From positions 62,001 to 126,000 of the forward strand of contig CAJFUN010000032.1 of assembly GCA_904420205.1 (NCBI GenBank): a stretch of 64,000 nt of DNA. Direction: 5' to 3'. The position numbers were made by a program, and so were the translations under genes. The notes under the pieces are model-generated. The model searched no databases. It was not told the origin of the DNA and saw only the letters and a program-made list of their open reading frames with translations. Shown piece after piece: positions 45,020-47,723 of this stretch; the first letter of the stretch is position 1; the number at the start of each line of letters is the position of its first letter. The stretch comes from Candidatus Parachristensenella avicola. Lineage in GTDB: Bacteria; Bacillota; Clostridia; Christensenellales; UMGS416.

Positions 45020-45245
45020 TTCAAAATACAAAAGACCCGTCCCTCTATCGGGACGGGTCCAATCGTTATGTTCCCGCGGTACCACCCAGCTTGACGCCTA
45101 AGCATCCACCTTTATCGGCTTATCGCGCCGCCGCGGCGGGCTCATCGCCCGCAGGCTCGGAAAGCGGAAAGAGCAGTTCCCCGCCGGTTTACACCTACCA
45201 CCGGCTCTCTTCAGGGGAAGGATGCCCATTTTCTTCGTCATAGCC
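45020..45245 (-). promoter_or_regulatory. T-box riboswitch leader of serS
   Basis: On the minus strand the T-box core GGGTGGTACCGCG lies at about 45088-45076, followed by the terminator hairpin GACCCGTCCC / GGGACGGGTC with TTTTG. Upstream are a Stem I with AGAGAG and GGTGTAAACCGG elements. Two UCC triplets (CTTTCCGCTTTCC, about 45156-45172) are candidates for the serine specifier. Uncharged tRNA pairing with the specifier and the T-box would favour the antiterminator. Confidence 0.93.
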
Positions 45246-45931: not shown

Positions 45932-46984
45932 CTATGGCTCCCGGATCAATTTCATATCGCCATCCTGGATCCATCCAATGCGATGGAAAATCCAATAGAA
46001 GCCCAGGCTTAACAGCGCCGGCGCAATCACATGGAGAATTAGGATCTGGGCCAGCGCCGTGCCGGCCGCCATCCCGCCTTCGGTGACCATGGCCTGCCAT
46101 GCCCCGAACTGCCCGACCAGCCCCGAGGTGCCCATGCCCGCGCCAGAGGGCGTATTGGTCATGCCCAACAGCGCCGTGGAGATGGGGCCCAACACCGCGC
46201 CGGCCAGTGTCGGCGGAAGCCAAATCGCCGGTTTGCGCAGAATATTCGGCACCTGCAGCATGCTGGTCCCCAGCCCTTGGGAAAGCAGGCCGCCCCAGCC
46301 GTTATCCTTAAAGCTAATGACCGCAAAACCCACCATCTGCGCGCAGCAGCCGGCGGCCGCCGCGCCGGCCGCCAAGCCGCTGAGGTTCAGCATGATGCAC
46401 AGCGCCGCTGAGGATATGGGCGCCGTCAGCGCAAGCCCCACCACCGTCGCTACCACGATACCCATGGGAATCGGGGCCATTACCGTCGCCGCATTCACCA
46501 CGCTTCCCAGCCAGGTCATAAAGCCGTTAACCCCTGGGCCAACGAATTTGGCCACCAGCGATCCGGCCACAATCACCGCCATAGGCGTCAGTACAATATC
46601 CACCTTGGTCTTGCCGGATATAAAGCGCCCTACCTCGCAGCTGACCACAGCCGCGATATAAGCGCCTACCGGGCCGCCCAGCTGGTAACCCAACGCGCCG
46701 GTCGCCGCGCAGGAGAACATGACAAGGGGCGCGCTCTTTAGCCCATAGGCAATGGCCACGCCGATCGCTGCGCCTACCACCGGCGAGCTGGCCGCCAAGA
46801 TCTCGGAGCTAAAGCCAAAGAAGGCCAACCCCGGCACCTTGGCGATCTGCGAAAGAATCAGCCCCACAATCAGCGACGCAAACAGGCCCAACGCCATAGC
46901 GCCCATGGCCTGGATGAGGTACCGCTGATAGATATACTGGAAGGGCGTGTACCATTTGAATGCTTTTTTCTCTTTCTTTTCCAT
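45932..46984 (-). CDS. Orphan PTS EIIC-like permease (PF13303-type)
   Basis: A 350-residue membrane protein with about ten helices, glycine-rich (VVGAAIGVAIAYGLKSAP, LAAGAAAAGCCAQMVGFA). It matches the PTS_EIIC_2 group, which looks like the membrane part of a phosphotransferase system but has no EIIA or EIIB gene nearby. ATG 46984 follows AGGAGG. It lies directly downstream of a NiaR-type repressor gene, and two copies of the same palindromic motif lie between them. This makes uptake of a vitamin or NAD precursor a stronger guess than sugar. Confidence 0.85.
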   Translation of the reverse strand: MEKKEKKAFKWYTPFQYIYQRYLIQAMGAMALGLFASLIVGLILSQIAKVPGLAFFGFSSEILAASSPVVGAAIGVAIAYGLKSAPLVMFSCAATGALGYQLGGPVGAYIAAVVSCEVGRFISGKTKVDIVLTPMAVIVAGSLVAKFVGPGVNGFMTWLGSVVNAATVMAPIPMGIVVATVVGLALTAPISSAALCIMLNLSGLAAGAAAAGCCAQMVGFAVISFKDNGWGGLLSQGLGTSMLQVPNILRKPAIWLPPTLAGAVLGPISTALLGMTNTPSGAGMGTSGLVGQFGAWQAMVTEGGMAAGTALAQILILHVIAPALLSLGFYWIFHRIGWIQDGDMKLIREP

Positions 46985-47002
46985 CTTTTCCTCCTGGCCG
47001 CA

Positions 47003-47020
47003 TGGGTGTCTTGTCACCCA
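47003..47020. promoter_or_regulatory. Palindrome before the permease gene (candidate NiaR operator 1)
   Basis: TGGGTG-TCTTGT-CACCCA: 6-base arms with a 6-base centre, 19 bases upstream of the permease start codon. The 16-base core GGGTGTCTTGTCACCC is repeated exactly at 47113-47128. Confidence 0.7.
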
Positions 47021-47030
47021 AGCTTATCAT

Positions 47031-47054
47031 AAAGCCGGCTGATGCCGGCCTTTT
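47031..47054 (-). terminator. Weak terminator between NiaR gene and permease gene
   Basis: On the minus strand AAAAGGCCGGC and GCCGGCTTT pair around an ATCA loop, between the two palindromes. It could separate the two transcripts. Confidence 0.5.
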
Positions 47055-47097
47055 ACCTTTGCAAGCCATGTCCCCCTCGGGGCGCAGCCGCTCCAAA

Positions 47098-47141
47098 ACA
47101 ATGCATGCAGGGGGGTGTCTTGTCACCCCTGCATGCATTGT
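47098..47141. promoter_or_regulatory. 44-bp nested palindrome with the second candidate operator
   Basis: Arms ACAATGCATGCAGGGG (47098-47113) and CCCCTGCATGCATTGT (47126-47141) are perfect inverted repeats of 16 bases. The centre contains the second copy of GGGTGTCTTGTCACCC. In RNA it would form a very stable hairpin; as DNA it is a strong operator candidate upstream of the permease gene. Confidence 0.7.
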
Positions 47142-47201
47142 ATCCTCCTTGCACGAACTTGGCAAGGCAGAAAACTGCCAAAGTTCGCAATCCGTTTTCG
47201 G

Positions 47202-47723
47202 TTATTCCGTTAACTCCACCAGTATTCCCTGATCTTTGAGGGTTGTAATGGCGCGCTCTAAAGCCGCTTGGCTCTCGGCGGTCAGCGTATGCAGGTGCAG
47301 CCCGCCTGTCACCACTGAAAGCGGTGCCGCCTCCGGCTGAGAGAGGCTCTCTACCAGCCGGTCGGCTTCCTGGCGGGTAGAAATACGCAGGCGCCCCACG
47401 ATTTCCCCATAAACCGGATGCTCCACCACAATATCCGCGACGCATGCGCCAGCATCCGCAACCGCATACAGCTCCCGGCGCATGGCCTCCTCGCCGGTAT
47501 GCCGGCAGGCTACTACGCAGGCGCAGCGCTCCCGAGGGCCCCGCAGGCTATAGCCCTGGGCGCTGGCCTCCACCTCCAGCCCCCCAGCCCGCAACACCGC
47601 CATATCCTGAACGATTACCTGGCGGCTCACCTGGAAGGCGGCCGCCAGCTGGTTGCCGGTCACCGGCTCCTTCGAGGTTCTCAATAGCTGCTCAATGGCC
47701 TTGCGCCGTTCGCAGGTCTGCAT
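47202..47723 (-). CDS. niaR: NiaR-type niacin-responsive repressor (HTH_11 + 3H domain)
   Basis: A 173-residue protein: winged helix N-terminus (RRKAIEQLLRTSKEPVTGNQ, VSRQVIVQDMAVLRAGGLEV) and a 3H domain named for its three histidines, seen here in CRHTGEEAMRREL, VVEHPVYGEIVGRL and TGGLHLHTLTAE. This is the design of YrxA/NiaR/TM1602, which binds nicotinic acid and represses niacin uptake and NAD synthesis genes. ATG 47723 follows AAAGGGGG. It is divergent from murG and upstream of the permease gene, its likely target. Confidence 0.9.
   Translation of the reverse strand: MQTCERRKAIEQLLRTSKEPVTGNQLAAAFQVSRQVIVQDMAVLRAGGLEVEASAQGYSLRGPRERCACVVACRHTGEEAMRRELYAVADAGACVADIVVEHPVYGEIVGRLRISTRQEADRLVESLSQPEAAPLSVVTGGLHLHTLTAESQAALERAITTLKDQGILVELTE

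Follow-up and report, generated by a model that had tools for sequence, protein, structure and literature searches.

A PF13303 permease under predicted NiaR control as a probable nicotinate importer in a Christensenellales genome

INTRODUCTION

What does an orphan permease of the PTS IIC type carry when the gene before it encodes a niacin-responsive repressor? The question is raised by a locus of Candidatus Parachristensenella avicola, lying in a window of 64,000 nucleotides (the whole stretch of DNA that was analysed), in which niaR is followed by a PF13303 permease gene, both on the minus strand. The public product name of the permease is 'PTS sugar transporter subunit IIC'. A first-pass annotation had proposed that it imports niacin or a related NAD precursor, and that it might be a new kind of transporter for such compounds. 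The answer matters beyond this genome, as little is understood of B3 uptake: a large survey of the human gut detected the three known B3 transporter families with confidence in just 25% of the B3 auxotrophs (PMC6593275). If the PF13303 permease imports nicotinate, many missing-transporter gaps would be filled and a common sugar-transporter annotation would be corrected.

RESULTS

The locus and its two proteins

The features of the locus are collected in Table 1. The niaR product has the domain organization of the NiaR (YrxA) family, an N-terminal HTH_11 (Pfam, 2.1e-14) and a C-terminal 3H domain (1.4e-26), and its nearest solved structures are the NiaR proteins of Thermotoga maritima (1j5y, 9ebr) and Bacillus halodurans (7cv0). 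It also possesses the conserved metal-binding His/Glu set of the family: H75, E84, H143 and H145, which we take to be the candidate metal ligands of the 3H domain, are invariant in an alignment of seven proteins that includes the T. maritima and B. halodurans sequences. The permease matches PF13303 (PTS_EIIC_2) over positions 2-327 of the 327 of the profile (5.3e-90, 302 bits for a cut-off of 28.9) and contains no second Pfam domain. Its most likely start is the ATG at 46984, preceded by the ribosome-binding site AGGAGG, rather than the upstream GTG at 47017, which places operator 1 immediately 5' of the permease reading frame. The scanned neighbours of the locus are serS, a gene for an HTH and cupin regulator, and murG, with no EIIA or EIIB among them. 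Pfam and the neighbour scan thus agree with the first-pass description of a NiaR-type gene followed on the same strand by a IIC permease devoid of EIIA/EIIB. The 2.96-Mb assembly contains a single gene of each type, PF13303 and 3H.

Table 1. Features of the niaR-permease locus (positions in the window)
Feature	Position	Strand	Basis
niaR, 173 aa, HTH_11 + 3H, niacin-responsive repressor	47202-47723	-	Pfam
Promoter-like TTGCCA-17-TACAAT, directly before operator 2	47137-47165	-	consensus scan
NiaR operator 2 (predicted), GGGTGACAAGACACCC on the permease strand, about at the expected transcription start	47113-47128	-	exact motif
Long inverted repeat that encloses operator 2 and is followed by TTTT; may be the niaR terminator	47096-47144	-	fold
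NiaR operator 1 (predicted), ~20 bp before the permease ATG	47004-47019	-	exact motif
PF13303 permease of 350 aa with IIC fold (orphan); probably imports nicotinate and belongs to NiaY	45932-46984	-	Pfam, AlphaFold2 model, genomic context

The gene order murG, niaR, permease, HTH-cupin regulator, serS is kept across two genera (loci L106 and L095, of the host, G000, and of G017). The regulator gene lies closely 3' of the permease and might be linked with it. On the minus strand 5' of serS, at ~45050-45130, there is a T-box-like tail, GGGTGGTACCGCGG, for which Rfam made no call at its gathering threshold.

The operators

The 16-base GGGTGTCTTGTCACCC is present in exactly two copies between niaR and the permease, as first annotated, and nowhere else in the genome. 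A pattern search of the host assembly with its 14-base core returned these two exact matches only; no other site was found with one mismatch or less, and the next-best matches, with two mismatches, were about as frequent as for the reversed control. In both sites the core TGTCTTGTCA is one base off TGTCTTGACA. A type I operator that resembles TGTCTTGACA and precedes the target gene is a further mark of the NiaR family, present here as two sites and found in relatives as well. TGTCTTGACA lies within R1, a predicted NiaR site of the Streptococcus pneumoniae nadC gene, of which the functional site is R2, TGTATTGACA (PMC5343564).

Operator 2 begins 9 bases past the end (47137) of the promoter-like element, which agrees with the consensus at 10 of 12 positions (0.3 expected per shuffle) and was called from the consensus only. 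It also lies within a near-perfect hairpin of 16 bp (-29.6 kcal/mol, z -7.2) that is followed by TTTT, so that operator 2 may in addition end the niaR transcript, the hairpin perhaps serving both to terminate niaR and to control the permease. In G017, by contrast, the hairpin and its T run stand apart from the operator, of which there is one copy, downstream. The position of operator 1 is similar, about 30-50 bp before the ATG, in G017, G396, G219, G466 and G344.

Conservation of the box before permeases

The first-pass annotation had made its proposal depend on the motif being conserved before NiaR-linked permeases of related genomes. We took the permease loci of 39 NiaR-positive and 40 NiaR-negative genomes, and counted as a NiaR box any match to GTGTCTTGACAC with at most two mismatches within 300 bp 5' of the permease. 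A box was found in 12 of the 39 NiaR-containing genomes and in none of the 40 others, for 0.4 predicted from shuffles, while of 722 further 300-bp segments taken from these loci 8 had such a site (p=5e-12). The motif recurs in many lineages, and the proposal withstood this test; the core is found before permeases in both orientations and only if NiaR is present. In several box-bearing genomes (e.g. G026, G219, G466, G344) niaR is distant or on a separate contig, which argues for a regulon signal and not for carry-over from a neighbouring gene. At the cut-off used, 24 of the 39 genomes had neither box nor operon linkage. In B. halodurans, whose NiaR structure has been solved, the only PF13303 gene is preceded by the NiaR box ATGTGTCTTGTCATGT.

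The search for the adjacent pair itself, which the first-pass annotation had suggested, had a mixed outcome. niaR directly adjoins the permease in G017, G396 and Acetoanaerobium noterae also, but strict adjacency is rejected as a general rule, the pair being adjacent in only 2 of the 18 NiaR genomes of the order, where the permease mostly occurs without NiaR. In A. noterae (L185, 5422-6996) niaR lies ~37 bp 5' of the permease gene. Nor does NiaR regulation mark one permease clade: in a tree of 80 PF13303 proteins, the boxed or operonic members are scattered, their state changing 11 times with at least 8 changes forced. The simplest reading of this tree is a single shared substrate, with NiaR control repeatedly gained and lost. 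No box was found before the remote PF13303 paralogues of ~30% identity (e.g. in Terrilactibacillus), and the claim of nicotinate import does not extend to them.

Association with NAD synthesis

The order niaR-[box]-nadA-nadB-nadC-permease is found in three genomes (G267, G471 and G327), in which the permease gene overlaps nadC by 17-20 bp or starts 1 bp past it. Among the 151 genomes sampled in the order, the permease is present in 92 (61%), NiaR in 18 and NadA in 15. The permease is nearly always found without nadA: it occurs in 3 of the 15 NadA-containing genomes versus 89 of the 136 lacking NadA (p=0.0012) and, when only NiaR-less genomes are considered, in 0 of 10 versus 80 of 123 (p=6e-5). 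The within-family product for this avoidance is 2e-4, over the families with members among the matches listed. In the host's own family, three genomes have NadA and no permease, and the five without NadA all have the permease. A link of the permease to NiaR or to loss of NadA throughout the phylum is rejected, as neither association was clear in the wider phylum sample.

NadA and PncB both went undetected in the host assembly, whose completeness of 90.8% may account for the absence of PncB. The salvage enzyme of the host is either absent from the assembly or unrecognised. NAPRTase matches were obtained in four permease-bearing relatives of its family.

Association with nicotinate fermentation

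A link that owes nothing to NiaR boxes, and that spans several families, is provided by other permease loci. Two upstream neighbours of permeases, found without any NiaR criterion, are molybdopterin-binding proteins of 328 aa whose best solved relative is 3HRD_B, the medium subunit of the Eubacterium barkeri nicotinate dehydrogenase (338 bits versus 153 for the next one, and 395 versus 198). For the genes around them we use Hnr, Dml, Mii, Mgm and Dmd, presumptive assignments by protein family and gene order after the E. barkeri pathway. In G202 the permease gene overlaps ndhM and precedes the gene of an Hnr-like Fe-S protein, with ndhFSL, dml, mii, mgm and dmdA/B homologues behind. The arrangement is ndhFSLM-permease in G384, where no NiaR was found, permease-ndhF-(S)L-M ... 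hnr in G351, of which the G448 locus is a near copy, and dmdAB-mgm-mii-dml-permease in G197. Gene order varies among the clusters of G197, G202, G351 and G384 (L182, L177, L184 and L176), each of which includes a PF13303 permease; in G384, ndhFSLM and the permease adjoin other genes, and those for the later steps of the pathway are missing. Both NdhM proteins have, as read from their residues, a tyrosine at position 13, and Tyr13 has been modelled as holding the nicotinate ring nitrogen (PMC5746545).

Predicted fold of the permease

A search of solved structures by permease sequence gave no match, and profile comparison detected no similarity to Escherichia coli PtsG. An AlphaFold2 model built from 80 homologues (mean pLDDT 95.2) matched, above background, glucose-superfamily PTS IIC structures: 8qsr with Z 15.1 (4.1 A over 300 residues), 6bvg with 14.7 and 3qnq with 10.8, the best unrelated structure reaching 6.1. 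Of what a PEP-dependent sugar PTS comprises, the permease model thus has the IIC fold, and the IIA and IIB parts are neither fused to it nor encoded at the locus. The simplest reading of such a combination, which we infer from the model and the neighbouring genes, is that the permease is probably a simple carrier or symporter that leaves its cargo unphosphorylated.

DISCUSSION

We consider it highly probable that niaR and the permease constitute a niacin-uptake unit, in which the permease is a NiaR-repressed importer of nicotinate supplying NAD precursor. Gene content, the operators and their conservation, the co-operonic genes and the predicted fold are the direct basis of this reading, and from them we infer which substrate is carried, in which direction, and the response to niacin. 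The proposed mechanism is as follows. Niacin would bind the metal-containing 3H domain of NiaR, and the loaded repressor would occupy the two operators between niaR and the permease, one over the likely start of the permease promoter and the other just before the permease ribosome-binding site. The permease would then be switched off when niacin is plentiful; when it is scarce, NiaR would let go and the permease would bring in nicotinate as NAD precursor. Three points count against the proposal: with no PncB detected in the host, the enzyme that would use the imported nicotinate is not seen; the wider phylum sample gave no clear association of the permease with NiaR or with lack of NadA; and box and operon linkage are both absent, at the cut-off used, from 24 of the 39 NiaR-containing genomes.

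The missing PncB leaves room for another cargo, such as nicotinamide, nicotinamide riboside, NMN or quinolinate, because a host with neither NadA nor a detectable PncB could possess a salvage route other than PncB, and pnuC, coding for a riboside transporter, can belong to NiaR regulons (PMC5343564). We nevertheless hold such a cargo to be unlikely, since the link to nicotinate dehydrogenase and fermentation names nicotinate, quinolinate and the ribosides being outside that pathway. Much less credible still is the possibility that the repeats are not protein operators but RNA hairpins, i.e. pieces of a terminator, attenuator or riboswitch. The very stable hairpin around operator 2, with its TTTT, would fit this, but Rfam gave no match, on which ground a riboswitch or other RNA element was rejected; the core occurs before the permeases of other genomes in either orientation and only in those with NiaR, and it resembles the S. 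pneumoniae sites TGTCTTGACA and TGTATTGACA (PMC5343564).

We give the least credence to the reading implied by the public product name, that of a sugar PTS which borrows its IIA and IIB from elsewhere and lies next to niaR incidentally. Besides that name, the glucose-superfamily fold speaks for it, as does Lachnospira eligens, where the permease is near PTS genes. Against it stand the NiaR boxes in many lineages, the nadABC operons and the nicotinate-degradation clusters, together with the lack of IIA/IIB beside the permease in the window and of profile kinship to PtsG. The COG of the permease presumably carries the label PfoR. A function as the PfoR toxin regulator was also rejected, since according to a review pfoA expression is unchanged in a pfoR mutant (PMC4448169).

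Nicotinate import by a NiaR-controlled permease at this locus can be placed in a broader proposal, on which our opinion is evenly divided: that the main PF13303 clade, a large one annotated as orphan PTS sugar IIC, consists of widespread nicotinate transporters. A PTS IIC fold would here have become a non-phosphorylating vitamin carrier, used for NAD salvage, whether NiaR is present or not, and for nicotinate fermentation alike.

As to known systems, the host NiaR shares with 1j5y (T. maritima) and 7cv0 (B. halodurans) the HTH and 3H domains and the conserved metal-ligand positions; it differs from them in that identity is ~40% and that it is linked to a permease as target instead of to nadABC. 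The permease model shares its overall fold with the glucose-superfamily IIC proteins PtsG (8qsr), MalT (6bvg) and ChbC (3qnq), but identity is 10-13%, IIA and IIB are missing and the genomic context is not that of a sugar. Niacin import by the permease, which the first-pass annotation had put forward, is supported by the NiaR boxes, the nadABC operons and the nicotinate-fermentation clusters, whereas the idea of a new kind of transporter is weak and finds no support. NiaY, from Rodionov et al. 2008, is a NiaR-regulated family of candidate niacin transporters of Bacilli and Clostridia, named in that year and counted in five genomes (cited in PMC5343564, PMC7713382 and PMC6593275). One trait of NiaY, that of a membrane protein under NiaR control, is seen at the level of sequence in the operators here and in relatives, and the permease shares with NiaY the predicted NiaR control, the proposed role in niacin uptake and the occurrence in Bacilli and Clostridia. 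Since the single PF13303 gene of B. halodurans has a NiaR box, PF13303 is probably the NiaY family. The B. halodurans gene is presumably BH3254, 'predicted nicotinate-regulated transporter', a name which agrees with this identity and is no test of it. The likeness extends to NiaX (an ECF S component) and NiaP (MFS), NiaR-regulated niacin importers that belong to transporter classes other than that of the permease. Unlike the five-genome count of NiaY, PF13303 is spread far wider, and this spread independent of NiaR, the nicotinate-fermentation link and the model of a IIC fold are what the present analysis adds.
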